Source of the DNA: a virus
Virus record (IMG/VR): IMGVR_UViG_3300034023_000165
Location: 1-25,661 of that record
Direction: 5' to 3' (one strand)
DNA: 25,661 nucleotides
Of this stretch, positions 878 to 24,211 are shown one piece after another. The position numbers and the translations under genes are program-made. Every line of letters begins with the position of its first letter. The stretch's first letter is position 1. The notes beneath the pieces were generated by a model. It saw nothing but the letters and a program-made list of their open reading frames with translations, ran no database searches and was not told the DNA's origin.

Positions 878-2137
878 ATGCCTTCGATTACCCAGTTCAA
901 TGACTTCATGCAGACCACTGGTCCTGCATACCTGAAGTCCGCCGATGCAGTCATCAACGAAGCCGTCAAGAACAACTACGTCCTTTCCCGTCTCCTCAAG
1001 GAGAAGGCCAGCGAGACGCTGATTCAGGCTGGTAGCAGCATCAAGGACACCATCGTGTTCGACGATGCCTCGACCTACCAGAAGTATCAGCCGAACGACA
1101 CCTTCACTTGGACGAATCCGCAGGTCACCGACACGCTGTCCGCCTCGTGGCGTTTCAGCATGGACTACATGACTTGGACCGATCAGGAAATCGAACTCAA
1201 CGAGGGCGATGCCAAGGTCATGTACAAGCGTCTCAAGCGCATCAAGGAGATGCGCATGTGGACTTCCATGCTCAACGGCATGGAAAACGACCTGTGGGCT
1301 ACCTCTGCTGGCAACTCCGGCAACATGGAAAACGCAGGCGGCAAGGAGCCGTACTCGCTTCCCGCGTTCATCACGGAGAAGTTGAACACCGTTACGACCT
1401 TTGGTGACCGTGGTGGTGCGCCGATTGGTTTCACCACCGTCCTTGGCATTGATCCCACGATTGATGCTCGTTGGTCGAATCAGGTTTCGTTCTATTCGTC
1501 GAACGGTGGACGCAACGACGTTCCCACGTCTTACGCGTTCACTGGTCACAATGCAGGCACTCGTCAAGTTGGTGGTCTGTTCCCGGCGTTCGATGACATG
1601 TACCTGAAGGTGCAGTTCAAGGCTCCGCTGACGCAGAAGCAGTACTTCGATGAGACTAACTTCCAGCGTCAGATGATCCTGTGCAGCCGTCTTGGTATCA
1701 ACAACTACAAGCGGGCTCTTCGCGACTCCAACCAGTTGCTCGTGAGTGCTGAAGATTCGGCCTATATGACTCCGACCTTCAGCGGTATTCCGCTGGAATA
1801 CTGCGCCAACCTTGATGACGCTGCCATCTTCCCGTCTGTTGCTTCTGGTGGTACGGTGAATCCGAACAAGGCTGGTCGCGATGGTGCGACTCTGTCCTCC
1901 ACGTTCACGAACACCGAAACCGCTACCAGCACCATCGACAAGGGTGCGCGTTACTGGTTCGTCAATGGTCAGTACCTCACGCCCATCTTCCATAGCACCC
2001 GCTACATGAAGAAGCATGATGTCATGCGCCATCCGAATCAGCCGTTCACTTGGGTTCAGCCCGTGGATTGCTGGTGGAACCTGTTCTGCAACAGCCGTCA
2101 GCGTCACGGCATTGTGGCCCCGGTTGCGACTGCCTAA
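878..2137 (+). CDS. Major capsid protein
   Basis: The 419-residue product is the likely shell subunit. It follows a scaffold-like gene and precedes a small cement-like protein and the adaptor, the usual order in podovirus-like phages. Length, the Asn/Thr/Gln-rich composition, the N-terminal helix region (MPSITQFNDFMQTTGPAYLK) and the middle with WRFSMDYMTWTDQEIELNEG resemble capsid proteins of environmental podoviruses; the HK97 fold is assumed from this, not shown. No cleavable N-terminal delta domain stands out, consistent with a separate scaffold gene. Translation should be strong: AAGGAGG lies just before the ATG. Codon use is C-rich at third positions and clearly more biased than in the genes from about 4 kb on, as expected for an abundant product. 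Confidence 0.85.
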   Translation: MPSITQFNDFMQTTGPAYLKSADAVINEAVKNNYVLSRLLKEKASETLIQAGSSIKDTIVFDDASTYQKYQPNDTFTWTNPQVTDTLSASWRFSMDYMTWTDQEIELNEGDAKVMYKRLKRIKEMRMWTSMLNGMENDLWATSAGNSGNMENAGGKEPYSLPAFITEKLNTVTTFGDRGGAPIGFTTVLGIDPTIDARWSNQVSFYSSNGGRNDVPTSYAFTGHNAGTRQVGGLFPAFDDMYLKVQFKAPLTQKQYFDETNFQRQMILCSRLGINNYKRALRDSNQLLVSAEDSAYMTPTFSGIPLEYCANLDDAAIFPSVASGGTVNPNKAGRDGATLSSTFTNTETATSTIDKGARYWFVNGQYLTPIFHSTRYMKKHDVMRHPNQPFTWVQPVDCWWNLFCNSRQRHGIVAPVATA

Positions 2138-2164: not shown

Positions 2165-2659
2165 ATGTCAGTTCTTCTTGAAGCATCTAATCACGGAACG
2201 CTCGGCATTCAGCCGAATCCTCTCATTCTGTCGTGCCGTAACAAGGATTCGTCTGCTATTGCCCAGTGGGCGCTCGTTCGTCTTGACTTTGCACAGACGA
2301 GCGAACAGCCCGGTTCGGGCGATGCTGCACTCGGTGCGGCATCGACCTCCAAGTGGGCAAACGTCACTCTCGCCCCCACTACGACTGCCGCTTCTAGCGG
2401 AGGTCTGTACGGGGTCGCGCAGGAAGCGATTCCTGCTGGTGGCGTTGGAAAGGTGATGTTTGCCGGAATCACGCAGGCCACCAGTGCCTCTCTCACCTAT
2501 GCGGTTGGTGAAGCAGTTGGTCTGACTGGCAGTGCGATTACTGGCGGAAACATCAGCAATGCAACGGTCACCACGAAGATTGGCATCTTCGTTGGGACTG
2601 CCGGAGCAACTACTGCTCCGCGCATTCTGCTGCAAGGCTCACTTGCCTTCGGAACCTGA
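2165..2659 (+). CDS. Capsid cement/decoration-like protein, paralogue 1
   Basis: A 164-residue protein rich in Gly, Ala, Thr and Ser that probably decorates the capsid surface. It starts with a motif shared with two later genes (S-N-H-G-T-L-G-I-Q-P) and contains the pattern LVRxDxTQ...LYGVAQEAIPAGGVGKVMFAGI...YAVGEAVG, which resembles the beta-rich DUF2190-type decoration proteins that follow capsid genes in many phages. That assignment is by pattern only. Its place directly after the capsid gene and the AAAGGA ribosome binding site suggest high expression. Homologous copies are at 4482-4967 and at the N-terminus of the gene at 4991. The shared domain is the whole of this protein, so it probably represents the basic, unfused form. 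Confidence 0.6.
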   Translation: MSVLLEASNHGTLGIQPNPLILSCRNKDSSAIAQWALVRLDFAQTSEQPGSGDAALGAASTSKWANVTLAPTTTAASSGGLYGVAQEAIPAGGVGKVMFAGITQATSASLTYAVGEAVGLTGSAITGGNISNATVTTKIGIFVGTAGATTAPRILLQGSLAFGT

Positions 2660-2710: not shown

Positions 2711-3442
2711 ATGCTTACCTACGGCGATCTCAAGAACCACATTCTCCTTGCTCTCGGTGGCCGTCCCTCGACGGCTTCCGGGCAGACTGTCGCTGAACGG
2801 CAGGCGGAGATCGTGAACATTGCTGGCGAACACCTGTTCACCCACCCGTGGAAGTTTCGGGAGGCGACCGCTAACATCAGCACGGTTGCAGCGCAGCAGT
2901 ATCTGGCCCTTCCTGCTGACTTCGCGGAACTGACCTCTGTCTGGAAGTCCAACCAGCCGATCTGGATCAGCACTCCGGACGAGGTGGAGACTGCCCGCAT
3001 CACCTCGTTTCCCGATCTGACCTACCGCGTGTACGTCAAGACGGTGGTTCCCAGTGGTGACACGGCTGGGAGTTCTGTTGCGCAGTCCTATCAACTCCAG
3101 ATTTACCCCACGCCGACTGGCGTTGATACGCTGAAGATCCTGTATCGAACGGGATGGTCATCGGTTACGAGCAACACCACGGTTACGACGATCATCCCGG
3201 TCCCGAAGCATGTGGAATCGACCATGATCGCCTACACGCGGGCGGTCGCGGAGGCGTACGAGGACGATGGTCTTCCGCAGCGTCTCGCAGAAATCGAGGC
3301 TGGCCCGATCTTCGGAGCAGCCAAGCAGAAGGACGGAATGGTCCAGAGCCATTTCGGCCAGTTGCAGCCAAATCGCTGGCGTAGCCCGTCCAACTGGGGA
3401 CCGGGATTCGTCATTCTAAACCCCGTACAAAGCCCGACTTGA
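2711..3442 (+). CDS. Head-to-tail adaptor (tail tubular protein A / gp4-like)
   Basis: A 243-residue protein that probably forms the ring joining portal and tail. The N-terminus (MLTYGDLKNHILLALGG) followed by a helical segment with QAEIVNIAGEHLFTHPWKFREA, then LPADFAELTSVW and a late QLQIYPTP...LKILYRTGW, follows the pattern of short-tail adaptor proteins related to T7 gp11 and P22 gp4: helices around a beta-sandwich, with a helical pair (ESTMIAYTRAVAEAYEDD) near the C-terminus. The protein is longer than T7 gp11 (about 196 residues), with a Trp/Pro-rich tail (RWRSPSNWGPGF) that could reach into the tail. Position after the capsid genes supports the call. No strong Shine-Dalgarno precedes it and the upstream hairpin may limit its translation, which fits a low-copy ring protein. 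Confidence 0.6.
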   Translation: MLTYGDLKNHILLALGGRPSTASGQTVAERQAEIVNIAGEHLFTHPWKFREATANISTVAAQQYLALPADFAELTSVWKSNQPIWISTPDEVETARITSFPDLTYRVYVKTVVPSGDTAGSSVAQSYQLQIYPTPTGVDTLKILYRTGWSSVTSNTTVTTIIPVPKHVESTMIAYTRAVAEAYEDDGLPQRLAEIEAGPIFGAAKQKDGMVQSHFGQLQPNRWRSPSNWGPGFVILNPVQSPT

Positions 3443-3452
3443 GGAATTCACC

Positions 3453-3989
3453 ATGAGCCTGCTTGGACTTTCGCCCACCCTGACTGCTACCCGGACGCTT
3501 CCTGCTGCGTTGGAAGTCGGATTTCAGACGAACATCACGCTTCCCTCGACGCTGACGGTCAAGAACGCAACGACTACTACTCCGACTCCCCTTGCTGATG
3601 TGGTTGGAAATAGTTATGCGGGCAGCAGAATCGTCGTTGGTACGTCGATGAACTATGCCAAGATTCAGCCTTTCACCAGCGCAAGCGGCGGAAGCCTGAC
3701 CATGCATGTCATTGGATGGAACAGGGGTCAGGATGGTTACTGGAGGCCGCAACTGTTCAACACTTGCACTGTGACCGCTGGGACTACGACCACGGTGATC
3801 AATGGATCAAACCTGTACGCCGGACTGACCTACAGCAAGACGCATGGTGACTGCAAGATTTACAGCGGGAATGCTGCCGCCGCGTACGGAGGTTTCATCT
3901 TGGTTGACCTCTGCGGTGCCGAACTTCTTGAAATCGCCATGTCTGCCTCCAGCACTCCGACCGCCAATGTCCTCATCGGGTTCATCTGA
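3453..3989 (+). CDS. Putative virion structural protein, unknown function
   Basis: A 178-residue, Thr/Ser/Gly-rich protein of mainly beta character with no family I recognise. Visible features are a Thr-rich linker (NATTTTPTP), an aromatic segment WNRGQDGYWRPQLFNTCTV, the pattern TVTAGTTTTVINGSNLYAGLTY, three cysteines (residues near 109, 132 and 154) and a hydrophobic C-terminal end (NVLIGFI). Composition is like phage surface or decoration proteins, and it lies among them. GAGG precedes the ATG by a suitable distance. The stop overlaps the next start as TGATG, so the two products are probably made together and may act together. It could be an additional head protein or a tail accessory protein. 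Confidence 0.65.
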   Translation: MSLLGLSPTLTATRTLPAALEVGFQTNITLPSTLTVKNATTTTPTPLADVVGNSYAGSRIVVGTSMNYAKIQPFTSASGGSLTMHVIGWNRGQDGYWRPQLFNTCTVTAGTTTTVINGSNLYAGLTYSKTHGDCKIYSGNAAAAYGGFILVDLCGAELLEIAMSASSTPTANVLIGFI

Positions 3990-4456
3990 TGCATCGTCGG
4001 AACCGAACATGGCCGCTCGACAACAGTCCGAATGACCGTTGCAGGCAACGGGTATTGGAAGTGTCGGGAAATCCAATTGATGGGACGGTTGTCAATTTCG
4101 GATACACGGCATGGGTGAACGAATATGTTGGACCGTGGTGGGCAAATCTCACGGGTGGTTCTGATGTCAAAAGTGAGGCAGCACAAGTTTCGATGAATGT
4201 GTTGCCATATTCGGCAACTATTTCGTTGCTGATTGTCTCCAGTTTCGACGGTGACTACGACGAACCTGTACTTTCATACGCCAAGAATCTTGGTGTAACA
4301 ACGACTTATACCGCTCCGTTTAGTGTGGCAAAGACTGATTCGCTTTCCATTGGATTCACGCCACCAGATCAACTCGGTAATGGTCTTGGATCCATCGTTG
4401 TCTATGCGGATGGAAACATTATCAGTACGATCCCATACGAATGGACTGCCCCGTAA
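3989..4456 (+). CDS. Putative beta-sandwich virion protein, unknown function
   Basis: A 155-residue protein that I do not recognise. The first 20 residues are basic (MHRRNRTWPLDN...RCRQR); the rest looks like one or two beta-sandwich units: VSGNPIDGTVVNFGYTAWVN, then MNVLPYSATISLLIVSSFDGDYD and a C-terminal GSIVVYADGNIISTIPYEW. The start overlaps the previous stop as TGATG, with no strong ribosome binding site, so translation is probably by re-initiation. Third positions carry visibly more A and T than in the capsid gene, hinting at later acquisition or low expression. Immunoglobulin-like capsid or tail accessory proteins would look similar, but this is inference. Confidence 0.6.
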   Translation: MHRRNRTWPLDNSPNDRCRQRVLEVSGNPIDGTVVNFGYTAWVNEYVGPWWANLTGGSDVKSEAAQVSMNVLPYSATISLLIVSSFDGDYDEPVLSYAKNLGVTTTYTAPFSVAKTDSLSIGFTPPDQLGNGLGSIVVYADGNIISTIPYEWTAP

Positions 4457-4481: not shown

Positions 4482-4967
4482 ATGTCTATGATTGTTTCAA
4501 CATTCTCGCAGGGAACGCTTGGTCTTCAGCCGCGCTCTGTGATTGTAAAGGCGCAAAACGCCGAAATGTCCACGACGATTGCCACTGGCGATCTGGTTCG
4601 ATTCGACCTGACGCAGCCATCCAGTTCTCCGGGCAATGGAAGTGCGCTTCCGACCGCTGCGTCAAATTCCAAATTCGCAAACGTCAAGGTTGGTCCGTTT
4701 ACTGGAACGGATGCTGGCGGAATTTACGGTGTTGCCCAAGAAGACATCCGCGCTGGCCGAACTGGGTACATCATGGTCGTTGGAGTTACCAACGTCAAAT
4801 GCTCTTCGCTGACCTATGTTGCTGGGGAAATTGTCGGAACGAGTTCCAATGCAGCAACGGTTACAAATTCAAATCCGGTTGCCAAGGTTGGAACGGTGTT
4901 GTCCAGCAGCGGTAGCGCGGTCACATCCATCCAAATCATGCTTGACGGCAGTTTGACGCTTGCCTGA
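4482..4967 (+). CDS. Capsid cement/decoration-like protein, paralogue 2
   Basis: A 161-residue paralogue of the product at 2165, with the same landmarks in the same order: F-S-Q-G-T-L-G-L-Q-P near the N-terminus, GDLVRFDLTQ, a Gly/Asn/Ser segment ending in NSKFANVKV, then GGIYGVAQEDIRAGRTGYIMVVG, LTYVAGEIVG, and a C-terminal IQIMLDGSLTLA. It is closer to the N-terminal domain of the next gene (both have SNSKFANV, VKC and LDG/FDG near the end) than to paralogue 1, suggesting the 4482/4991 pair arose by the later duplication. It probably binds the same type of capsid or tail site. AGGA precedes the ATG. Function is inferred only from the paralogy and gene position. Confidence 0.6.
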   Translation: MSMIVSTFSQGTLGLQPRSVIVKAQNAEMSTTIATGDLVRFDLTQPSSSPGNGSALPTAASNSKFANVKVGPFTGTDAGGIYGVAQEDIRAGRTGYIMVVGVTNVKCSSLTYVAGEIVGTSSNAATVTNSNPVAKVGTVLSSSGSAVTSIQIMLDGSLTLA

Positions 4968-4990: not shown

Positions 4991-7696
4991 ATGTCATACA
5001 TCGTTTCTGCATCTAATCAGGGAACTCTCGGAGTCCAGCCAGCAACCGTTGATGTCCCCGTGCGAAATGCCGGAGCCGTCGATGCCATCGAAATTGGTGA
5101 TCTCGTCCGCTTTGATATGACGCAGGCATCGTCGATTCCCGGACAGGGGTCGGCAGCAAATGGATCCGCGTCGAATTCCAAGTTCGCCAATGTCGTGCGT
5201 GAGGCAGCGGCATCTATTGCCACTGCATTCGGCATCTACGGGGTCGCCCTTGATCGCATCAGTGTTGGCAAGATTGGAAAGGTTCGTGTGGTTGGCATTG
5301 CCACCGTCAAGTGTGCGCAATCCACCTACACCGCCGGAGAAACAGTTGGCATCCCCGCAGTTCCGATTGCGGCAACGGTAGCGAATTCCGGCGTACAGAT
5401 TGGTCTTGGAACCGTGTTGACTTCCGGATCCAATCTTACTAGCGTCGAAGTGATCTTCGATGGTTCGTTCGGAATGCTCACCAAGAGTGGTGTGTCCGGA
5501 AATGGTCCGCTCGTCTATGGATCGACGAAGGCTGCATCGTTCCTTCGCGATGCGCAGGCCGGAACTGATTCAATCGATGTGATTGTGATTGGAGACAGCA
5601 ACAGCGGATCTGCTTTGCTCGGTGCTTGGGGATACTACGCTGGAATTTCTCAAGGTTTGTCTACGCTTGGAATTCCCTGCTATGGAACGAATCTGGCTCC
5701 ATTTGTTGATCGCAGTCGAACTGGTCAGGCTCGTTTCTATGGGACATGGAATTCAACGTCAACGACGATTGCCAAGAGTTCCAACTATGTGTCTGGCCTG
5801 ACTGCTTCGGTGTTTACTCCAGATGCACTTGCAACGCCATATAGCGTCTGGAATTTCAACACTCCGAAGGTCAGTTACGGTTCTAGCACCGATTATCAAA
5901 CTGTCAGTGGAACCATTTCCATTACTGGTACTGCTGGTGAATTCAGCACTACAGTGGCTGCTCAATTTCAGGTTGGTCAGGTAGTTACTATTTCCGGAAC
6001 CTTGAGTGGAGCCACCATCACTGGATACACGAATCCCGGTGCTGGAACTCCGCAATTCTATTACGTCATTGCGACTAACGGAACGACCACGTTCCAGTTG
6101 TCTAACACTCGTGGTGGAGTTCCAGTCGTAACTACTGCTGGAACGACGAGCGGCCTGACTTTGAAGACGGGAGCGGATTATGACGATTGGCTGTTCATTC
6201 CTGCTTCCGCAACTTCCTTGTATCAGAACAATGGAATTTCAGTTGATATGAACCATCCTCTGGCTGCAAATGGAGTGGAACAGAAACTGCGAGTGAGGTA
6301 TGGAAAGGTCAATGCAGCCAATGGCCGCTTCATCCCTAATGTCAATTCCGCTGGTTCAGTAAATTCACTTACGAGATTGGTGAATGGCGGCACAGGAACG
6401 ACCAATGCTGTATCAATGCAACTTGGAGCGGGAGAAACTGCTCCTACCTCGTTTGTGAGTGAAACTACATTCACCGCAAACGGCAAGGGGCATAGTGCAT
6501 CGGCAATTGGATATAACACCAATGGTACTGAATTTTCTCAAGGACCGGGTGTGCTGCTATGCCAGTCGCTGTATCGAGTGCAAAAGGGATTTGCAGTTCA
6601 CACTCATGCCTATCAGTCTGGTGAAACCAGCACTGACATTTCTAACGTGCTTACCCAAGCACCGAACTCTTCGTTGCGTGTTTGGCTGCAAGAAATTCGT
6701 GAGCGTCAGATCGCTGCTGGTGGAACTGGCAGGGTCATGCTGTTCATGCATTCGGGAATCAACGGCGCAGACACTACGTCAACGTGGACTGCCGCTCATA
6801 CTTCGACATGGTCAAAGTACAAGGCTGTCTGGCAAGAACTCGGTTACAGCCTGAATGATTTGGCGATTGTGTCGATGGTTGGTGTACAGCGAAACAGCGC
6901 AGACACGAGCGGAAATGGTGCTGATCTGGTGGCTGTCCGTGCAGCAGCCAACCAGATGGTTGTTTCCAATCCTGATATGTGCGTAGTTGACATCAAGAAG
7001 GCGATTCCCTTTGCCGCGATGTTGTACGGAACTGGAGCGGCTTCTTACTATCAGAATTACCTCAATAACCCTAATGTCGCATCCGATATCACGGTTCACC
7101 TGTCTGGCGGATACGCAAATCAGCCATCTGCGCAGGTGGCTACCGTGACTTCGTCCACTGGTATCACGCTGACTGGAACAACCGCAGTTACAGCAGATGG
7201 ATATTGGACGGGAAGCCGAATTGCTATTAGTACAGTTGGCATTGCAGTGACCGCCATAGCAGATACGAGCGGCAATTTCACTTGCACTACGCAGGCTGGA
7301 AATCTTGTTGTTGGTCAGGCAATTGTGATCAGTGGAACTGCCAGTTCTGGGGGAATCACTGGGTACACCGCTCCCGGCCCGACCACCTATTACATCAGGG
7401 CGACCAACGGAACGACCACGTTCCAGTTGTCTGCAACATTCAATGGCAGCGCGATTACAACTACTGCTGGAACTGGCGCAGGATTGACGTTTGCATACAC
7501 TGGTCCATCTGCATATCAGGACACTTGGATCACTGCTTATGCAGGTGGTACAAAGATCGCAACTGTCGCACAGTGGCCCGGAAATCAGCCAGCCACTGGT
7601 TCAAACGTCACCTACACGCTGACGAAGAGATGTCCATCGGATGGCTACACGGCTGTCAGCCATGTGCTTCTTACGTCCATTCTGTCTGAACTGTGA
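4991..7696 (+). CDS. Cement-domain / SGNH-hydrolase fusion virion protein
   Basis: A 901-residue protein with two parts. Residues 1-165 are a third copy of the cement-like domain (SNQGTLGVQP, GDLVRFDMTQ, SNSKFANV, FGIYGVALDRI, VEVIFDGSFGM). After a short linker comes an SGNH/GDSL-type hydrolase: block I is IGDSNSG with Ser203 as candidate nucleophile, a GIN motif (HSGINGAD, about residue 590) fits block III, and D699-I-T-V-H703 could be the Asp/His pair, with one residue more than the usual DxxH. Two copies of a roughly 90-residue module interrupt it (residues 301-394 and 750-838); the second separates the His box from the C-terminal helix (DGYTAVSHVLLTSILSEL). The likely role is a virion-bound esterase or deacylase acting on host surface polysaccharide. 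The substrate is unknown, and catalytic residues rest on motif reading only. Confidence 0.65.
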   Translation: MSYIVSASNQGTLGVQPATVDVPVRNAGAVDAIEIGDLVRFDMTQASSIPGQGSAANGSASNSKFANVVREAAASIATAFGIYGVALDRISVGKIGKVRVVGIATVKCAQSTYTAGETVGIPAVPIAATVANSGVQIGLGTVLTSGSNLTSVEVIFDGSFGMLTKSGVSGNGPLVYGSTKAASFLRDAQAGTDSIDVIVIGDSNSGSALLGAWGYYAGISQGLSTLGIPCYGTNLAPFVDRSRTGQARFYGTWNSTSTTIAKSSNYVSGLTASVFTPDALATPYSVWNFNTPKVSYGSSTDYQTVSGTISITGTAGEFSTTVAAQFQVGQVVTISGTLSGATITGYTNPGAGTPQFYYVIATNGTTTFQLSNTRGGVPVVTTAGTTSGLTLKTGADYDDWLFIPASATSLYQNNGISVDMNHPLAANGVEQKLRVRYGKVNAANGRFIPNVNSAGSVNSLTRLVNGGTGTTNAVSMQLGAGETAPTSFVSETTFTANGKGHSASAIGYNTNGTEFSQGPGVLLCQSLYRVQKGFAVHTHAYQSGETSTDISNVLTQAPNSSLRVWLQEIRERQIAAGGTGRVMLFMHSGINGADTTSTWTAAHTSTWSKYKAVWQELGYSLNDLAIVSMVGVQRNSADTSGNGADLVAVRAAANQMVVSNPDMCVVDIKKAIPFAAMLYGTGAASYYQNYLNNPNVASDITVHLSGGYANQPSAQVATVTSSTGITLTGTTAVTADGYWTGSRIAISTVGIAVTAIADTSGNFTCTTQAGNLVVGQAIVISGTASSGGITGYTAPGPTTYYIRATNGTTTFQLSATFNGSAITTTAGTGAGLTFAYTGPSAYQDTWITAYAGGTKIATVAQWPGNQPATGSNVTYTLTKRCPSDGYTAVSHVLLTSILSEL
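5891..6172 (+). repeat. Inserted beta module, copy 1 (in SGNH protein)
   Basis: Residues 301-394 of the SGNH fusion protein. The pattern is VGQ-x-V-x-ISG, then ITGYT, an aromatic pair YYVIATNGTTTFQLS, and a Thr/Gly-rich end TTAGTTSGLTL. It matches copy 2 in the same protein and a more divergent copy in the nozzle-like protein. Similar VGDxVxxTG...YYVxxATxTTFxLS segments occur in many phage structural proteins. Confidence 0.7.
6077..6103 (+). repeat. 27-nt exact direct repeat, copy 1
   Basis: Identical over 27 nt to 7406-7432, while the flanking module sequence differs. The repeat includes the inverted repeat GGAACG-ACCA-CGTTCC (6080-6095). Exact identity inside diverged copies suggests recent recombination or gene conversion. 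Confidence 0.85.
7238..7504 (+). repeat. Inserted beta module, copy 2 (in SGNH protein)
   Basis: Residues 750-838. It shares VGQAIVISG, GITGYTAPG, YYIRATNGTTTFQLS and TTAGTGAGLTF with copy 1 and is preceded by GNFTCTTQ. It sits between the putative catalytic His box and the C-terminal helix of the SGNH domain, so it looks like an insertion into that fold. Confidence 0.7.
7406..7432 (+). repeat. 27-nt exact direct repeat, copy 2
   Basis: Second copy of the 27-nt sequence at 6077-6103, encoding NGTTTFQLS; the inverted repeat GGAACG-ACCA-CGTTCC lies at 7409-7424. Confidence 0.85.
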
Positions 7697-8108: not shown

Positions 8109-8414
8109 ATGACCTTGTCAGAGCAGTCATCATGTCCCTGTTGCAGTGGCTGCAAGGGGTCGCTACGGGACGAGGTCAAGGTACAGATGCTCCTGCTGAT
8201 CGCGGTCTTCTTGGCCGTGCTGGCTCTCGCATTCACGACTGGCTGCACAAGGACGGTGCTGGTAAGCGAGTCCAGCCCGATCAGGACCGGACCTGATGTG
8301 CATGGGAAGGTGTATGTGAAACAGGACGATGGGTGGAAACTGGGTGACAACGAGGTTCGGATTCCCGAAGGTTGGTACTGCGTACCACCTTCGTTCGTAG
8401 AGGAGCAGCGGTAA
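8109..8414 (+). CDS. Small lipoprotein (possible o-spanin)
   Basis: A 101-residue protein with a lipoprotein signal: the hydrophobic stretch MLLLIAVFLAVLALAF is followed by TTGC with the lipobox Cys at residue 46. The mature part (VLVSESSPIRTG...VYVKQDDGWKLGDNEVRIPEGWYCVP) is a pattern seen in small phage lipoproteins with EGWY near the end. The start is uncertain: ATG 8109 has GGAG at 8098-8101 with ideal spacing and adds a cysteine cluster (CPCCSGC) before the membrane segment; ATG 8187 has AAGG just upstream and gives a conventional signal peptide. An outer-membrane spanin partner for the gene at 7705 is the favoured role, without proof. Confidence 0.6.
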   Translation: MTLSEQSSCPCCSGCKGSLRDEVKVQMLLLIAVFLAVLALAFTTGCTRTVLVSESSPIRTGPDVHGKVYVKQDDGWKLGDNEVRIPEGWYCVPPSFVEEQR

Positions 8415-9706
8415 TGGCTATCAAGTTGCAGGTTCGTCGCGATACGTTGACTAACTGGACCGCGAACCAGACCGTTGTCTTGCTTGAAGGCGAGATCGGA
8501 TATGTCACCGATACGCGCAACATGAAGATTGGCGATGGTACGACCCAGTGGCAGTTTCTCAAGTATCAGGCTCCGTTCTATACCGGAACAAACAGCAGCC
8601 TCGCCACTACCACGCTTTCGGTAGACCAGTCCAACAACCGCGTTGGCATTGGAACTATTGCTCCAGCAGAAGCATTGGGTGTTGTTGGCAAGGTCTATGT
8701 GGGCAATCAGGCCAGCACTGGAACGAGTGGAACACTTGGTCTGATTTCCACTGGAGGTCTGAATTACATCCAAAGCGGAGAGAACACCAGCGGAACTTCC
8801 GCCGCTCCATTGATCATTGGTGCTATCGGAGGTGGAACAAACTGGCTGCGCGTGACCAGTGGTGGCGTTGGCATTGGTGTCACCGCAAGCCCGTCAAATA
8901 CGCTCAACATCGAATCTGCCACTCCTACGATTCGTCTCAAGGACACGACCAACGCCAACACGGCACATTGCCTCATCGACGCAAACGGAGATGACGGATC
9001 AATCATTATTGCTGCTGACCCGACTGCACAGGGCGCGGCAGCGTCTACGGTGTCCCTGTCTGTCGATAACACTACGAGGCTTCAGGCGACCACTACTGGT
9101 GTTGCTATCACGGGAACCACTACGTCGAGCGGGTTGATTACCGCCAGTGCTGGACTCACTGTCCCAACTGGTCAGGCTCTGACGGTTGCCGGGACCGGAA
9201 CCGTGTCGGTCCCAGCCGGAAGCATTACTGGCGCAGCAATTACCACCAATACGCTTGCTCCATCAAAGATCAGCAACATGGCTGCTGCTGGAGTTCTTGG
9301 CGCGACCGCTGCTGGAGCAGTTACTGAACTTACAACTGGATCTGGTGGAACCGCGAAAACTGCGCTTGGACTTGGAAGTGCTGCATATACAAATGGAACT
9401 GACTTCATATGTGCATTGAATCAGGTCGGCCAAATTGCGTTTGTCTCTTTCCTAGATAGTGGATCTGGAACCGATGCAGGTGTATATACAGGAGTTACAT
9501 CATCGTCTACAACCGGGCCGAGTGGTGGTAGCAATACGAGTGCGCCAACGTATGTAAGTTTTGGTGGAACTACAACGTGGTCAAAGCCGGGAAGTGGAGT
9601 GAGATACGTTCGGCCAAGTCAAGGAACATGGACTTGTATTCAAACCAATAATTCGACTGCAAGTTCCAATACCGTGTTGAGCATGATCTGTATTAGGACT
9701 TCCTGA
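8414..9706 (+). CDS. Tail fibre / receptor-binding protein
   Basis: A 430-residue fibre. The N-terminus (MAIKLQVRRDTLTNW, then LLEGEIGYVTDTRNMKIGDG) is the attachment region common to many phage fibres and to the Bordetella phage tropism determinant. The shaft contains NNRVGIGT-type repeats (VGIGTIAPAEALGVVGKVYVG and VGIGVTASPSNTLNIES), typical of trimeric beta-structured fibres, then a Thr/Gly/Ala-rich middle. The C-terminal 100 residues (from about 9400) have a Ser/Thr/Gly/Trp-rich tip with A/T-richer codons and probably contact the receptor. I see no intramolecular chaperone or enzymatic motif. The start at 8414 overlaps the previous stop (TAATG) with GAGGAGC upstream; an in-frame GTG at 8372 is less likely because it would extend into the lipoprotein gene. 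Confidence 0.8.
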   Translation: MAIKLQVRRDTLTNWTANQTVVLLEGEIGYVTDTRNMKIGDGTTQWQFLKYQAPFYTGTNSSLATTTLSVDQSNNRVGIGTIAPAEALGVVGKVYVGNQASTGTSGTLGLISTGGLNYIQSGENTSGTSAAPLIIGAIGGGTNWLRVTSGGVGIGVTASPSNTLNIESATPTIRLKDTTNANTAHCLIDANGDDGSIIIAADPTAQGAAASTVSLSVDNTTRLQATTTGVAITGTTTSSGLITASAGLTVPTGQALTVAGTGTVSVPAGSITGAAITTNTLAPSKISNMAAAGVLGATAAGAVTELTTGSGGTAKTALGLGSAAYTNGTDFICALNQVGQIAFVSFLDSGSGTDAGVYTGVTSSSTTGPSGGSNTSAPTYVSFGGTTTWSKPGSGVRYVRPSQGTWTCIQTNNSTASSNTVLSMICIRTS

Positions 9707-12165
9707 TGCCCTACGTTCCAGTCGCTCTTCCTTACGGCGGAATCAACATCGACAGCGGTTATTCCTCGCTGCCTGCTGGTTTCACATCGGACTGCATCAA
9801 CATCATGCCGTTCGACCCGTACAAGGGAAAGTTGCGGCTTGGTCAGCGGCGGGCATTGTGCGGCGCGTTTGAGTTCAACGATACGACCCCATCTGTCATC
9901 ACTCGCAAAGTCCAGACAATCGTTCGCGCTGATGCGTATGTCAGTGGCGTTCTGCTTCAGCGGTGCATTGTCGTTGCCGGGGGCGAGGTGTTTATCATCG
10001 ACCCCGGAACCTTGACTCCTTACAAGGCTTCCTATGCGGCATCGACATCAAAGTTGAAGTCCACTGGCAACGTGTCCGTAGCAGTTGTCGGTGAATATGC
10101 GTACTTTGCTGATGGCGAAAAGTATCGCCGGATGAAGATCACGCTGGCGACTCCCACCGTTGAATTCTGGGGTACAACGCTATCGAACGTCACTGTCAAC
10201 AACACGACCGGGCATTTCAGATGCACTGCCACCAACTTGGCTGTTGGTGATGCCATTGCAGTGACTGGAGCATTTCCTGCTGGCGGTGGAAATATCACTG
10301 GATATGTAAATCAGGAAATGTTCTACGTCAAAGCAATCACTACGACTCCATACGAATTTGTGTTGACAAGAGATCCGGATACTGCTTCCGGAGCGCATAT
10401 ATCAACGACTCTGACTAGTGGTAATGGAAGTACCACTGGAGTCAGTTTCATTATCAGCGGTCCAGAGATGACCGTCAAGCCATCTACCATTAGTGTTGGT
10501 TCGGTTGGTGCGGAATCAGGCGCACGGGCTGGGCTGCTGGTTCGATTCGGTGGACGCTTGGCATTGAGCGGACTGGAATCGTCATCGAACAACTGGTTCT
10601 TGAGTGAGTTGAACGATCCGAATAATTGGCTTCCCGGAGCGACATCGAATACCGCTGTCGCAGGATCATTGTCAACGAAGTACGGCGTTCCGGGTGAACC
10701 GATTACTGCGTTGATTCCGATAGGTGAAAGTGGATTGTTGATGGCTGGTAGTCATACGATGACTTACCTCAACGCAGATCCAGTTGTTACTGACGCGAGG
10801 ATGATCGAGTTGTCTCGATCTGTTGGAATCGTCAGTGCGCGGGCATGGTGTGCAAGCGATTCGCAGACCATCTATGTGATGGCGCAGGATGGCTTGTATC
10901 GCGTTCAGCCAAACGACTATCAGATCACCAAGAGCAATCGAATCACTACTGCTCGACTTGACACTTACTTTCAGCAGCAGAAGTTCGACCAGTTGAATTG
11001 TGTCCTTGGCTACGATGCCGAAGGACAGAACGTCTATTGCATGATGTCGCGCATTGACTTGCCGAACAGCAGCGTTCATATTGTCTACAATCAGGCGACA
11101 AATTCATTCTGGCCCATCAAGACTGCGTGGCCCTCGTTCCAAGCACCTACCTGCTGTGGCGACTTCCCATTTGGAGATGCCCGCGCACCCATCCTTGCGT
11201 TTGGAAGCACCAACGGTTTCATTGGGTGGTTTGATCGCGACCTGACATCTGGTATCGATGGTCAGGCTGCTACTGGGTACAAGACCGCAACGGTGTTTGA
11301 TCCGACTGCGGAGGATGCCGCCAATCAGCGTGTGGTCAGCAAACTGTTGTTTGGCCCGGTGCTGTCGCAGGAAGTAGCACAGGTGATGGTCAAGGATGTC
11401 AGGATTGAACTGACGATGGACCAGCCTGCGGAGAAACTGATTTACCAACCAGTTGTATCTGGTCCATTTCTGTACGCACTTGCAGGACAGACGGCAGAAG
11501 AAGCGGTTGGCGAGAACATCATTTCGGTGTCAGTTCAGTTCGACCCTGATTATCCGATGTTGACGCTCGACGCTGGATTTGCTGCGCCGTTCACTCCAGA
11601 TAGCACACAGATTTGTGGAGATGCGGCTGGAACTTCTCCTGCTGGTGCATATGCGATTGACCTGTTTGGCGCAGCACAACTTGCTCCGCAAACGTACACC
11701 ACTGCTGATGCGCTGATTACTGACCCACTTGCTCGTACTTACGACTATTCGTCTCTTGAGGTTTACAACGAAGGTACAGCCACTCCTAACTGGGTGATTC
11801 GCGATACGGTTGGTACTTACAAGACGTTGATGAGGCGTGACCCTACGCTTCCAGATACATCTGCTGATACTCCCGGTGGAACGTATCGGTATGAACCGCA
11901 AGCATTCAGGGATTACCCCGGAACTACTTTGCCAACGCCATTGGTTTCGCCTCGTACAGTTGTAAGCAGCGCGTCTTATGACAATACGAATCAGACGCTG
12001 CTCGGTACGTTGACATACGGCCGAAACGACTCCCAGCGGTGCAGGATCAACGATCAGGCGGTGTACATGCGCATCGAAAGTCTCGGTGTCCCGTGGGCGA
12101 TTGAGCGCATGTCCGTGTTGGTCGAAGCAACGAAGTTCAACAGGAACGTGAAAGGAACTTACTAA
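9706..12165 (+). CDS. Nozzle-like tail protein (P22 gp10 / T7 gp12-type)
   Basis: An 819-residue protein that probably closes the short tail below the adaptor. The N-terminus (VALPYGGINIDSGYSSLPAGFTSDCINIMP) is typical of short-tail hub proteins that begin by counting off a genome-binding strand, and the middle (GGRLALSGLESSSNNWFLSELNDPNNW, ALIPIGESGLLMAGSHTMTYL, YVMAQDGLYRVQPNDYQI) reads like successive beta-propeller blades, as in nozzle or DNA-stabilising proteins. Residues 161-252 are an inserted copy of the beta module found twice in the SGNH protein. The C-terminal part (RNDSQRCRINDQAVYMRIES...WAIERMSVLVEATKFNRNVKGTY) resembles the ending of such proteins. Start and stop overlap both neighbours (TGATG, TAATG). 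The family call is by pattern, so gp10 versus gp12 relation is open. Confidence 0.65.
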   Translation: MPYVPVALPYGGINIDSGYSSLPAGFTSDCINIMPFDPYKGKLRLGQRRALCGAFEFNDTTPSVITRKVQTIVRADAYVSGVLLQRCIVVAGGEVFIIDPGTLTPYKASYAASTSKLKSTGNVSVAVVGEYAYFADGEKYRRMKITLATPTVEFWGTTLSNVTVNNTTGHFRCTATNLAVGDAIAVTGAFPAGGGNITGYVNQEMFYVKAITTTPYEFVLTRDPDTASGAHISTTLTSGNGSTTGVSFIISGPEMTVKPSTISVGSVGAESGARAGLLVRFGGRLALSGLESSSNNWFLSELNDPNNWLPGATSNTAVAGSLSTKYGVPGEPITALIPIGESGLLMAGSHTMTYLNADPVVTDARMIELSRSVGIVSARAWCASDSQTIYVMAQDGLYRVQPNDYQITKSNRITTARLDTYFQQQKFDQLNCVLGYDAEGQNVYCMMSRIDLPNSSVHIVYNQATNSFWPIKTAWPSFQAPTCCGDFPFGDARAPILAFGSTNGFIGWFDRDLTSGIDGQAATGYKTATVFDPTAEDAANQRVVSKLLFGPVLSQEVAQVMVKDVRIELTMDQPAEKLIYQPVVSGPFLYALAGQTAEEAVGENIISVSVQFDPDYPMLTLDAGFAAPFTPDSTQICGDAAGTSPAGAYAIDLFGAAQLAPQTYTTADALITDPLARTYDYSSLEVYNEGTATPNWVIRDTVGTYKTLMRRDPTLPDTSADTPGGTYRYEPQAFRDYPGTTLPTPLVSPRTVVSSASYDNTNQTLLGTLTYGRNDSQRCRINDQAVYMRIESLGVPWAIERMSVLVEATKFNRNVKGTY
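10186..10461 (+). repeat. Inserted beta module, copy 3 (in nozzle-like protein)
   Basis: Residues 161-252 of the nozzle-like protein: GHFRCTATNLAVGDAIAVTG, NITGYVN, FYVKAITTTPYEFVLT, TSGNGSTTGVSFIISG. The order of landmarks matches the two modules in the SGNH protein, but the nucleotide sequence has diverged. Confidence 0.65.
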
Positions 12166-15043: not shown

Positions 15044-18000
15044 ATGTCCTCACTTGATCGCCTGTCGGACTTTCTCGTTCAACTCGATAAGAACGAAGAA
15101 CAGGCTGCTGCTGCACAAGCACCTACTGCTGAAGCACCTGCTGCTGAAGCACCTGCGTCTCCGCTTGACGCACTTGCTGACTTTGTGGCACGGCTGGATG
15201 TCGAGACTGCGCCCGGTGCTGCTCCCGGCTCTGCACCCGGTGAGCAGGATCTGACTGCGGCAGCGGCCAAGATGTACGAGAATGAGGTGGTCCTGCCGGA
15301 ATGGATGGGCTGGATCCCCCGCGAGATCGAGCGTGGTGCGCGTGGTCAGGTGTCGCAGGCTGCGGAAGCGATTGCGACTCCGGGCATGCGGTCGCAACTG
15401 CTTCAGTCGATCTACAACGGTGCGTGGATGCTTGCCGAACTTGGTTCGGCTGGCATGGGTCCGGCGATGCGCGAGATCCGTACCCAGTCGCCCGAACTGA
15501 AGGAAACGATCACTGGAGCAGCGGCACAGGAAACGTCTATGGCTATCGAACGCGCTGCGTTTGATACCCAGATGGATCCCACGCGCATCCGTGAGGAACT
15601 GATCGCTGCACAGGGTGCTGCACAAGGAACTGCGAAGAACCAGCGTGAGGGAATCGGTGGCGACATTGCCCGTGCCACTGGTCAGAGCCTGACCCAGTTT
15701 GCTGCGATGGCTCCGGCGGTTGCTCTTGGTGCGCCTGTGGCGGGTGCGGCGTTGGCATCCCAGTTGTACCTGCCGGGATCCAGTTACACGGCTGGCGCAC
15801 TGGAATACATCGACCAGATGAATCGCGACCGGGCAGAGGCGGCGATGGAGGGCCGGGATCTGCCGGAGTTCACGCTGTCTGGGATGCGTGACTACGCCGC
15901 GACTTCTGCGCTCATCAACACGGGCGTTGAAATGGGTGGCGCAGCCATCGGTGGCAAGATCATCGGCAAGATCGCCAAGGGTGCTACGGCTAGCAAGATT
16001 GGTCAGGCTGCACTCAAGCCGCTCATCGACCGTGGTATGCCCATCGTCGATCGGGCAATGGTGTCCAAGGTCGGCAGCAAGGGTCTTCAGACCTTTGCAC
16101 GGCTATCTGAAAACACGCTGGAGTTCCGTAACGGCTTCTTCGGCAAGGCGTTGGCGATGGGTGCGACTTCCGGTCTTGAGGAAGGTGGCGAAGAACTGGT
16201 GACGGCTGCGCTCATGGCTCCGTTCACCTCTGCTCCACTGTCCGAAGACATTGCCAACGGCCTTTACAGTTCGATGATTGGCGTGGCCGCAGGTGGTGTG
16301 GGCGGCACTGCGCCTATTGGTGCGTTCGCCGTGCGTCAGGGCATCGTCAACCGGGTTGATGCGATGCGGGCGGAGACGGATCGGGAGCGTGTGCTTCGCC
16401 AGATCCATTCCGAAGCGTTGCAGCGCAAGACCAACTGGACCAAGGACTTGACGGAGGAGCAGAACGCCCGTCTCTCCACCGCGCTGGACAGCGTCAACGG
16501 TATGGATCAGGAGCAGCGTGGCACGTTCCTCCGTGAACTTGCCGACCGCCGTGTCGATGTCCGCAGCAATGTGGACAACCTGTTGACGCAGCGTCAGCAG
16601 TTGGACATCGGCCTGACGGGTGCGCGTGATCTCGCGGAGAACGGCACGGACGAGGAGAAGGCTGCTGCCAAGGATCAGGAAGCGCAGATCCTTGGGCAGA
16701 TTGAGACGCTGGATGAGCAACTCCGGCTGGCATCTAGCGATGCAATGATGGCCGATGCCCAGTATGCGGCGGTAGCAGAGAAGATCGGGGAGATGCCTGC
16801 CACCATCGATCAGGCGCAGCCGGAGCAGGTGCTGACGGATGTCAGTACCCGGGCTGGTGTCGAACTCAAGCCTGTTGCCATGCCCAAGAATGGGCGGCGG
16901 GCGCAGGCACAGGTGGAGGCTCTTGGCCGGAAGGTGGTTTGGTTCCGTCCCTCTGCCGGGACGTTCAGCCCCGCATTCCACAGCATGCGGTCGCGTGGCG
17001 TGGTGTACATGAACGCTGATGCGCCGCCCACCAACGTCCTTGCGAACGCGCTGGAAGAGGTGTTCCACGACATCCAGATGTTCCAACCAGAGTTGGCACA
17101 GGTGTTTATGGATAAGGCTGGCCTCATGCCTGTGTATCAGGCGGGCGTGGCCTATGCCGCCCAAGGGACCAAGGAGTCAGCGGGCAAGGCGCAGTTGGAT
17201 AAGGCTGCGATTGCGCAGGCTGAATCTGCCGTGTCGGAACTGGCCGGGGAAGGGGCCACGGTATCTCCGGAGGTGGCCCGCGCCGGAGCCGCCAGAATCG
17301 AGCAGGAAGGCACTGCCAATGCGTTTGCCGCCGCAGCCCGGGCAACGGGGTCCGGATCGATCCTCGCGCCTCTCCAGCAGTTTGCGGCCCGCCGTGGGTT
17401 CCTTGGCCGCGATGTGATGGCGGCGATGGCGGTGCTTGACGCTGCCTCCCGCGCTGCTGCTGTTGAAGCCGTGGAAGGTACAAAGCCTGTCGCCATTCTG
17501 TCTCCACTGGCGCGGACGCTCCTGTGGGCCAACGACATGAACCTTGACTTCAAGGGTGAGTTGGACGCTGCGGAGTCATTCGCTCGACGCACCGAAGTCA
17601 CACAGCCCAAGCAGACTAATCGCGCCGAATCCATTTCGCAAACGACACCTGCAACCGTACCATCAGAGGCGCGTCCGCAAGGAGTTTCAAATGATCAACC
17701 AACCCAACCAACAGAACCTGCCGCCCGAGACCGAGGAGGGGTCGGAGAGGTACGAAGCCTTGCGCCGCTTGAAGGTGCGCCGCGTGTATCCGGTGCGACT
17801 GGACCAGACCCAAACCTCGTCGCCGTTGCCGAACGATATGCCCGCGACAACGGCATCCCCCTTCGTCGCCAAGCAGCGTACGCAAAGGTAGACGAGGACC
17901 GCGCAAGCCGTATCGCAGCGGCCTACGACGAGATGAAGCATGCCCCGAACGACCCGGTCGTTCGCGAGGCATACGAGAACCTCATCCAACAGACGCTTGC

Positions 18001-21000
18001 GCAGTACCGTGCGCTGGAGCAGGATGGCTACCAGTTCTACTTTTACGATGAAACCACGGACCCGTACGAGGGCAAGCCGTGGAACGCGATGCGCGACCTG
18101 CGTGCGAACAAGCGCATGGCTGTGTTTACGTCCTTGGCAGGGTTTGGCACGGAGCCGACTGACGTAAGCGACAATCCGCTACTCGCGGAGACCGGGCTGT
18201 TCTGGTCGTATGGCACGCCGGACGGCCCCCGCAAGCGCGTGCTGGCGAACGACCTGTTCCGTGCGGTGCATGACGCATTCGGTCACGGGCTTGAGGGCGC
18301 AGGGTTCCGTGCGGACGGCGAGGAAAACGCATGGCAGGCGCATGTCCGGTTGTTCACCGGAAGTGCGGTTGCCGCACTTACGTCCGAGACCCGTGGGCAG
18401 AACAGTTGGCTCAACTTCGGCCCATACGGAGAGAAGAACCGCACGGCTGCGGTAGAGGACACCACGTTTGCCACGCAGAAGTCCGGGCTGATGCCTGAAT
18501 GGACATGGACTGAAGGTCGCGTTGCCGATGCTTCAGACATCTCCTACGCCCGCCCCTCCGACACGGATTACCTAGCAGCGGTCGAGCGCGGCGACATGGC
18601 GACGGCGCAGCGCATGGTGGACGAGGCTGCTAAAGCGGCGGGATACCAATACGTTGGATATCACGCTTCCATGCAAGACTTCACCGAGTTTCTGTCTCTG
18701 ATTGAGCAGGCAGAGGCTAGAGGAGAAGAGTTTGATTACGAGGGATACGAGGGTGGCAATCTTGGTCGAGGCTTCTATTTCACTCCAGACCTGACATATG
18801 CCAAGCGATTCGGAAAGCCTCGCAAGTTCTATTTGAAAATCGAGAACATCGTTGATAGTCGTAATGAATCTGTAAAAGATCGTCTTCGTCAGATTTATGC
18901 TGACATTGTTGACGATCAGGGTGGAGCGCAACAGGGCGAGGCATATGACGCGCTGATGGATGAAACCAACGCGGATGGAGTTATCGCGGAGGATGCTGGT
19001 GGGTTCGCGTATGGCGCGACTGAACTTCTCGTCAAGCGTTCTAATCAGGCCAAACTTGCCGACCCCGTCACCTACGACGAGCAGGGCAACATCGTCCCGT
19101 TGTCCCAGCGTTTCGACGCTAGCCGCGATGACATCTCCTATGCCCGTCCCGCTGAAGACCCCGAAGTAACCGCGCTCCGTCAGCAGATCGAAGACCTCAC
19201 GCGCCAAATGCGCGATGTTCAGAACACCACTGCGGCGCAGCGCGTGAATGCGCTCCGCGAGGTGCGCGTCCTTGAGCGCAAGTTGTCCGCTGCCCAGTTG
19301 CTTGCGGAGCAGAAAGTTGGTCAGGCTGCGCGAAGTGCTGCGCGACTGGAGATCCAGAAGCAGGTCAACCGCGATGCCAAGCAGGCTGCGGAAGAGGCTG
19401 CTGCCACGATGTCCAAGGATCTGGAATCCGCCCGCGCTACCGTTGCGTCTCTGCGTCAGCAACTCCGCGAGGCGAAGTCCAACGCTGACACCGAAGACCT
19501 GCTCCGCGAGGCGGAGAAGAAACTGGATCGCGTGGCGAACTGGTCATACGCCATTGGCCGCAACGAAGGGCTGGTGGCTGGTCAGGTGGCTGGCATGCAG
19601 CAGGAACGCCGGGAGCAGTTGCGGGTCATCAAGCCGCTGAAAGAACGCCTGCCGCTAGTGGAAGCGCGTCTCGCCAAGGCGACCGAAGACCTACGGACGG
19701 CGCGGAAGCAGATTGCGCAGGATGAGCGTTCTGCGCAGAAGGCTGTTGACTTCGCGTACCAACTTGGCTTGCGTTCTGGTCAGGTGCAGGGCATGATGCG
19801 TGGCCGTCAGGTGTTGCTGCGCAAGATGGCGCAGCGCGAGGACACCTTGCAGCGGCAGTTGACTGGGCTTCGCGACCTGATGGCGACCAAGGTGACGAAC
19901 CTTGAATCCCTCCGTGCCGCTATCAGCCAGATTGCCACCGATGCAGCCCGGACGCTGCCCGTGCGTCTCCGTGGTCCGCTTGCAGTGCGCATTGCCAACG
20001 CCAAGACGCTTGGACAGGCCAATCGGATTGCCGTTGAAGCGACCAAGTTGGCTATCAACGAGGAAGTTTCGTCCACGCTGAAGACGATTGCTCGTCTCAA
20101 GAAGCAGATGAACAAGCGTGGCATGAAGTACGACACCCGTGTCCAGATCGAGACGCTGCTTCGCGATGCCGATGCTGCACTCCGTCAGGCAAACAGGCGG
20201 CGGATCTATGCCAGTGTCGGCGTGATGAAGAACGCTGCTGGCAAGTCGATGGGAGCCGCCATTCTGAACGCGGTGAATGTCTACAGTCAGGTTGCCGATG
20301 CCGCTGCCAAGGTGGATGCGGCACTGGTGCTGTACACCAACAATGCGGCGGCATTCAAGGCAGTGACGCAGGCCCGCGTGGCGAAGTATCAGGCCGATAC
20401 TGCCGCACTGGTCGCCAACATGCAGGGCAGGCCAACACTTCCGGAGCGTGATCGCACGGATCAGCCCGTGCGCACCTCTCTTGCGCGTCGAATCCGCGTG
20501 GCGAACTCCGACATTTACACCCTTCAGTTGGAACTGGAAGGGAAGTCAGATGGGATTATCAATAAACTGTTGACTGCTGCGCAGCAGGGCAAGGGAGCGT
20601 CCGCGCTTGAGCATGCGGCCATCATCCGTCAGTTGGAGCCGCTGCTTCAGGCGGCGGGCTACACGGGGCTGGATGACTACGCGCTCAAGAACGGGATGCT
20701 TGGTCAGACCATTGTCAACCCAATCACCGTGACGCTTGGTGGCCGCAACGTGACGATCCCGGTTGGAACGATGCTGTCAGTCGCTGCAATGGATGACGAA
20801 ACGCTCAACCTATTCCCAGAGGCTGGAAAACCGCTGACGCAGGGCATTCGTTTCCCCGGTTCTCGTACCACTACCACGATCTACCCCACTCGCGATGAGA
20901 TCATTGCGCTCAAGGCAAACCTCACGCCGGGTCAACAGGCGTTCATCGATGGCATGAAGTCGATTCTGGAAACGCAGATCCGCGACCGGACGATGGATGC

Positions 21001-24210: not shown

Positions 24211-24211
24211 C

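Follow-up and report, generated by a model that had tools for sequence, protein, structure and literature searches.

The viral stretch analyzed here (IMG/VR virus record IMGVR_UViG_3300034023_000165, positions 1 to 25,661), referred to as the window at its full length of 25,661 nucleotides, carries at 4991–7696 a gene that joins a capsid cement domain to an SGNH hydrolase. We consider it likely that this gene encodes a capsid-displayed, Ape1-type SGNH carbohydrate O-acyl (probably O-acetyl) esterase, built on a duplicated cement protein and used in adsorption. Residues 1–165 would form the duplicated cement, probably in a trimer, on the mature head at sites of the kind that the free cements occupy. 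The remainder, residues 166–901, would fold as an Ape1-type SGNH esterase in which a beta-sandwich separates Block I from Block II and two additional beta domains are present. Armed subunits would probably be mixed with unarmed ones from the cement gene directly upstream. Such a particle would bind, and strip acyl groups from, a host surface glycan before tail engagement, and this would help either head-first reversible adsorption or passage through a glycan layer. We infer the substrate, the catalysis (de-O-acylation of host glycans), and the role in adsorption. The viruses in question are a group of uncultured bacterial viruses, and the predicted enzyme is of a sugar-trimming type.

The fusion is real and maintained, because its open reading frame (ORF) is uninterrupted, relatives keep the gene, and the anchor is under purifying selection. 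The ORF is intact on the plus strand, with an ATG at 4991, 901 residues, and a stop at 7694–7696. Relatives were collected by scans of viral contigs and one genome scan, which together gave some 300 loci (designated here by L numbers). Full-length copies were kept in the metagenomic contigs L001 and L002 (DNA about 100% identical) and L003 (protein 91% identical). Between the window and L003, the ratio of nonsynonymous to synonymous substitution rates (dN/dS) was 0.09 for the anchor, indicating strong purifying selection, and 0.31 for the enzyme part, a weaker constraint than that on the anchor. An original prediction, made from the letters of the window, had described the first 165 residues as a paralogue of the free small proteins encoded at 2165 and 4482. 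These residues are 51% identical to the 4482 product (E 3e-44) and 38% identical to the 2165 product (E 6e-30), a paralogy far beyond chance. Pfam gave no match in the 901-residue fusion itself, though Pfam does match the paralogue with which the anchor shares 51% identity. In the model of the full-length fusion, residues 1–171 had low confidence, with few aligned sequences there. Consequently, the fold of the anchor was read from the model of its free paralogue, the 4482 product, which matches decoration proteins; comparison of the N-terminal domain with the small proteins therefore left the predicted relationship standing.

Decoration of the capsid by the small proteins, a premise of the prediction, is well supported by the Phage_cement_2 score, the matches of the model to decoration proteins, and the position of a cement gene beside the capsid gene. 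The 4482 product matched Pfam Phage_cement_2 (PF09956) at 34.4 bits (cut-off 24), and the 2165 product, which is 42% identical to it, had weak matches to PHROG 122, annotated as head decoration (E 0.008), and to Phage_cement_2 (E 0.014). Among the cements aligned, 19 of 34 matched Phage_cement_2 at E up to 0.01, and a cement gene directly followed the capsid gene in all 80 of 80 related loci. An AlphaFold model of the 4482 product, built from 34 homologues, reached a mean predicted local distance difference test (pLDDT) score of 85. All of its leading matches in the PDB were capsid decoration proteins, with Z scores of 13.1 for HFTV1 (8qsy), 11.6 for FCWL1, 10.8 for Pam3, 9.9 for TW1, and 8.5 for phi29 gp8.5. 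Further matches included Sf11, T1, and XM1, with lambda gpD lower in the list, and the base of phi29 gp8.5 (PDB 6qyy) matched the cement model at E 5e-4. Profile searches of PDB sequences returned chance matches only for a six-sequence cement alignment and, for the 34-sequence alignment, a single weak match to the phiCD508 minor capsid protein gp48 (E 0.2). Judged from its free paralogue, the window anchor would be of the same family and fold as Phage_cement_2 and the decoration proteins of gpD, TW1, and Pam3 type, but the known members are free cements, whereas the anchor in the window is fused. It is possible that the 4482 product serves as the unarmed partner of the fusion.

The remainder of the protein had been predicted to be an SGNH-type hydrolase, and structure comparison bears this out. 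Searches of the enzyme part against Pfam, PHROGs, NCBIfam, and PDB sequences gave no matches, and the SGNH fold emerged only when structures were compared. The model, with a core mostly at pLDDT 80–97, has a three-layer alpha/beta SGNH fold, and it matched Ape1 from Neisseria (4k3u) at Z 21.8 over 324 residues and from Campylobacter (8gkd) at Z 21.5. Other SGNH enzymes scored Z 14.7 and below, many of them at 12–15. The structural alignment covers residues 173–901 of the window protein and 44–390 of Ape1. The catalytic domain of Ape1 is split in two by a beta-sandwich at 104–221 (PMC6174289). The modeled window enzyme shares with Ape1 both the fold and the order of Block I (201–204), beta-sandwich (ending near 543), Block II (candidate Gly544), Block III (Asn591), Block V (His703), and last helix (885–899). 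However, Ape1 is a cellular enzyme without a cement domain, while the window enzyme contains two further beta domains and has its Block V acid displaced. A profile search of PDB sequences detects no similarity between the two, and the fold alone links them. Ape1 is a peptidoglycan O-acetylesterase; the window enzyme may have a corresponding activity.

Most of the catalytic residues proposed in the original prediction stand. The GDSN stretch at 201–204 (with Ser203) of its GDSNSG motif, Gly589 and Asn591 of its GIN motif, and His703 were invariant in 38 homologues. The Asp699 that it paired with His703 was not conserved, and the position of the acid shifts among homologues. In SGNH enzymes the Block V acid usually lies three residues before the histidine. 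In the window it lies four residues before His703; in L086, L061, L079, and L105 an acid (D or E) is found three residues before it, and in L018 and L058 six residues before it. SGNH enzymes with a Ser-His dyad, lacking the Block V acid, exist (PMC9487903), and for this reason the enzyme is likely to be active despite the displaced acid. The same residues bear on a reading that we find distinctly improbable, in which the domain sits on the head but is mainly a glycan-binding module whose hydrolysis is weak or lost. Such a role would agree with the lectin domains of LamG-like type found in the same slot or on the same anchors in relatives, with the displaced acid, and with a segment around the active site that changes faster than the anchor (dN/dS 0.50 vs 0.09). 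For a pure binder, however, it would be unexpected to keep Ser203, Asn591, and His703 invariant in 38 sequences, including a copy from a T4-like phage, and Ser-His dyads do occur in SGNH enzymes (PMC9487903).

The two extra beta domains of the enzyme part appear to be dispensable, as compact homologues such as L018 have neither insert. By profile match, a second copy of the first insert domain lies at residues 748–841 (about 7232–7513), within insert region 2. This beta domain of about 90 residues therefore occurs twice in the SGNH part (5897–6181 and about 7232–7513) and once in the tail protein at 9706–12165 (about 10171–10470, residues ~156–255). It was also found in many relatives (58 ORFs), and Pfam names no family for the window proteins in which it occurs. 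Virion proteins may thus share it as a mobile insert.

Fusions of this kind recur in relatives. In the phage group of the window, the genes run in the order capsid protein, cement, adaptor, 3453-like protein, variable slot, holin-like genes, Mtd_N-type fibre, and tail protein. The variable slot or its neighbor holds either long short-leader proteins with LamG-like C-terminal parts or cement fusions; here and below, LamG-like refers to our own reading of the sequences, with no Pfam match. Cement–SGNH fusions were found in the window, L003, L018, L019, L021, L058, L061, L079, L084, L086, L095, and others. A cement is joined to a LamG-like domain in L020 (6224–8536), L023, and L025 (12923–15250), and to a repetitive stalk-like region in L103 (1135–3051) and L232 (1688–3721), the L103 gene lying upstream of scaffold and capsid protein. 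In L090 (10321–12531) the cement carries a different protein with GDSN, VND, and DQVH motifs and a canonical DxxH, apparently from another SGNH subfamily. When 103 cement domains were placed on a tree, being fused or free required four changes, and supported branches force no fewer than three of these. Judged from this tree, cement domains have been fused to effectors independently at least three times. Beyond the phage group of the window, a third, decoration-like anchor of about 120 residues carries the same enzyme family in L120, L124, L125, L146, L157, L227, L229–L231, and L233. This anchor family was scanned with a smaller profile, the first one being too divergent, and its alignment with the other cements (hhalign probability 61%, E 8e-5) is no more than suggestive of homology.

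Sequence identities show recombination between anchor and enzyme at the boundary of the two domains. The anchors of L018 and L019 are 94% identical and their enzymes 38%; for L084 and L086 the values are 92% and 36%, and for L120 and L124 they are 96% and 37%. L124 and L125 show the reverse case, with enzymes 97% identical and anchors 50%. The L018 enzyme also recurs, at 87–88% identity, on the third anchor in L146 and after a short leader in L143. Such module exchange is known for the host-range modules of tail fibres.

With few exceptions, an extra free cement copy is seen only alongside a fusion. In the group of the window, with loci distinguished by their capsid proteins, two free cements were present in 8 of 11 loci with a fusion and one in each of 18 without (one-sided Fisher test, about 4e-5 by our own arithmetic, with relatedness ignored). 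In the Mu-like lineage, two free copies were present in 8 of 10 loci with a fusion and one in all 71 without. In the window, this additional gene immediately precedes the fusion, as it does in those Mu-like loci with an SGNH effector where that stretch is covered. We infer a mixture of armed and unarmed subunits, either within trimers or from site to site, and such mixing would limit crowding by the bulky 736-residue enzyme.

Display on the head rather than the tail, as proposed in the original prediction, is strongly supported, because cement genes lie beside the capsid gene and a second lineage has its fusion within the head module, although gene order counts here as evidence and does not amount to proof. 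In L120, Pfam and PHROGs call a terminase, a Mu-type portal, MuF, a capsid protein, and a Mu Gp36 adaptor. The order is Mu-like: portal, MuF, a free copy of the anchor, the fusion, a second free copy beside the capsid gene, capsid protein, and Gp36 adaptor. The connector and later genes are downstream of the capsid gene, placing the fusion inside the head module. Of the indirect evidence for the head, this position carries the most weight.

Several observations weigh against a head-displayed esterase. The acid of the triad is off its usual position, and the counts of loci given above take no account of relatedness. Among isolated phages, no match was found to the fusion, to either of two capsid proteins, to any of three further SGNH homologues, or to a type-B cement; the search itself works, since a terminase control returned 1612 records. 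In most relatives the same slot is occupied by LamG-like proteins without a cement anchor. The enzyme domain is also found without cement, behind a leader of 10–20 residues, and one such short-leader SGNH protein (L134) lies after tail genes. The enzyme itself is consequently not tied to the head, and the fusion could be a tail or neck component in which a cement-like domain was recruited as a tail anchor and the SGNH part is a tailspike-type deacetylase, as in Moo19, B2, and G7C. Tailspikes of SGNH type that act as esterases have been described (PMC11654681), and the tailspikes Moo19 gp82, B2 gp48, and that of Pan3 match the enzyme model at Z 12–14. The window gene also lies between the adaptor and an Mtd_N-type fibre gene. 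However, we regard a tail location as unlikely. The anchor shares 51% identity with a free cement of decoration fold, the Mu-like fusion lies in the interval from MuF to the capsid gene and apart from the tail genes, and at least three independent cement fusions, together with the further decoration-like family, would all need relocation. A tail location also leaves the extra free cement copies unexplained.

The last point to be set against a single displayed protein is Met162, located just after the anchor and kept in the five type-A fusions examined, which makes a separately translated enzyme thinkable. Proteolysis, or initiation at Met162, could split the two parts, and the enzyme would then act free, for example at lysis; holin-type genes are next downstream of the fusion gene. 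We give this very little credence. No good Shine-Dalgarno sequence was seen before Met162, type-B and Mu-like fusions have no methionine there, in-frame fusion arose repeatedly, and the anchor is under strong purifying selection.

For an esterase displayed on the head, the closest precedents are the HFTV1 turret and phi29 gp8.5. The head turrets of HFTV1 contain galactose-binding-like and deacetylase-like domains and were proposed to act in reversible adsorption (PMC12494034). As is proposed for the window fusion, the turret (gp30 base and gp31 head protein) places a glycan-directed, enzyme-like domain on the head (PMC12494034), and the HFTV1 capsid-portal entry, 8qsy, is the best structural match of the cement model. 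It thus provides a structural precedent for enzyme-like display on the head in adsorption. However, HFTV1 has an archaeal host and a separate hexameric base, gp30, on hexamers of the major capsid protein, whereas the window has a cement fusion with its own anchor. The HFTV1 enzyme is described as polysaccharide deacetylase-like (3RXZ), while that of the window is SGNH. For gp31, that work reports no homologue elsewhere among haloarchaeal viruses (PMC12494034). The phi29 head fibre gp8.5 resembles the arrangement proposed for the fusion in having an N-terminal decoration-type base, at quasi-threefold sites, and a C-terminal part projecting from the head, but that part is a supercoiled helical fibre rather than an enzyme (PMC6542822). 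The head spikes of the gene transfer agent RcGTA (Rcc01079/Rcc01080) bind the host capsule before the tail does (PMC7296036); unlike the window fusion, they have no enzyme and no cement fusion, and they are attached to pentamers. SGNH-fold virion proteins are also known as tailspikes of Schitoviridae (Moo19 gp82, B2 gp48/gp49) and G7C, where they act as esterases on host polysaccharide, but these are tail-borne, in contrast to the proposed head location of the window fusion. Head-displayed glycan-active proteins are therefore already known. A review of decoration proteins, searched by text, showed no natural enzyme fusion (PMC7602432), and we found no description of a natural SGNH–cement fusion in the open-access literature, nor of such a fusion arising repeatedly and with exchangeable enzymes.

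Having evolved at least three times, such fusions appear to be a general means by which the head, and not the tail, is equipped with tools for the host surface. More broadly, cements may be a general display platform in environmental phages, duplicated again and again, one copy serving as a free spacer and the other carrying exchangeable effectors, and the head a multivalent, glycan-processing surface of first contact; we hold this to be about evenly balanced. The effectors exchanged on cements comprise two kinds of SGNH enzyme, lectin-like domains, and stalk-like domains. Receptor-processing enzymes are normally sought on phage tails. If the enzymes considered here are on the head, annotation pipelines will misplace or miss them, as the window enzyme matched none of the models in Pfam, PHROGs, or NCBIfam. 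If our reading is true, head-first adsorption, described to date in the archaeal virus HFTV1 and in the gene transfer agent RcGTA, would extend to bacterial phages in a testable form. The pair of free and armed cements also suggests a natural design for displaying enzymes on capsids at a controlled density.

Table 1. Positions in the window of the fusion gene's parts and of the genes around it.
Feature	Position	Strand	Remarks
Major capsid protein	878..2137	+	PHROG 9953 'major head protein', E 4.6e-10; cement gene directly after
Free cement protein 1 (164 aa)	2165..2659	+	Adjoins capsid gene
Head-tail adaptor	2711..3442	+	Pfam PF24175 SU10_adaptor, 44.9 bits (cut-off 27)
Small virion-type protein of the fusion's cassette (~175 aa)	3453..3989	+	Homologues directly precede short-leader effector genes in several lineages
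Short-leader protein of the fusion's cassette	3989..4456	+	Variable
Free cement protein 2 (161 aa)	4482..4967	+	23 bases upstream of fusion gene
Cement domain of fusion (residues 1–165)	4991..5485	+	Proposed capsid anchor
SGNH hydrolase part (residues 166–901)	5486..7693	+	Predicted from match of model to Ape1
Block I GDSN (residues 201–204)	5591..5602	+	Nucleophile Ser203
Insert domain 1 (~residues 303–397)	5897..6181	+	Dispensable beta domain; profile finds 302–398
Beta-sandwich between Block I and II (~residues 398–545)	6182..6625	+	In place of Ape1 carbohydrate-binding-like domain (Ape1 alignment)
Gly544, candidate Block II oxyanion glycine	6620..6622	+	At least 90% conserved in 38 homologues; placed by sequence order alone
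Block III 'GIN' (residues 589–591; 'SGIN')	6755..6763	+	Oxyanion Asn591
Block V 'DITVH'	7085..7099	+	His703
Insert region 2 (~residues 706–880)	7106..7630	+	Between Block V and last helix; dN/dS 0.49

The gene pair at 3453 and 3989 recurs across lineages as a small protein followed by an effector behind a leader of 10–20 residues, the effectors being LamG-like, Gly-rich, or SGNH. The 3989 product has 155 residues in the window; it is Gly-rich with 301 residues in L003 and LamG-like with 423–1076 residues in other relatives. Because length and content vary in this way among relatives, the 3989–4456 slot changes faster than its neighbors. By analogy with the base and fibre of the RcGTA head spike, the pair may be a second two-component display system. 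The RcGTA fibre docks on its base protein through a short N-terminal peptide (PMC7296036), which resembles the short-leader proteins of the window cassette. The 3453 protein was also considered as a homologue of the HFTV1 turret base; there was no sequence support, with no matches among PDB sequences. An excess of 506 bases in the first locus match was considered as an insertion; this was ruled out, as it is merely the tandem cement gene.

Two homologues of the enzyme stand apart. L105 (2215–3774) encodes one without cement, with the same Ser, Asn, and His, on a contig with T4-like replication genes by our reading of its ORFs. L223 (8592–10127) encodes a secreted-looking homologue beside cellular-looking genes, on a contig assigned to a Planctomycetaceae metagenome-assembled genome; it is possibly a cellular relative and offers a weak hint on hosts. 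The genome scan for hosts gave three distant matches only, too few for naming one.

Downstream in the window, the fibre-like protein at 8408–9706 has an N-terminal Major tropism determinant domain (Mtd_N, E 1.8e-11), and its start is probably the ATG at 8408 rather than the listed TTG at 8372. A 2548-residue protein of ejection or polyvalent type is encoded at 15044–22690, with a sub-threshold match to ART-PolyVal (ADP-ribosyltransferase of polyvalent proteins, E 1.4e-5). A recombination pair is made up of a PDDEXK-type nuclease (DUF3799, 73.7 bits) at 23392–24210 and, after it at 24158–24973, a single-strand annealing protein of the ERF type (67.3 bits).

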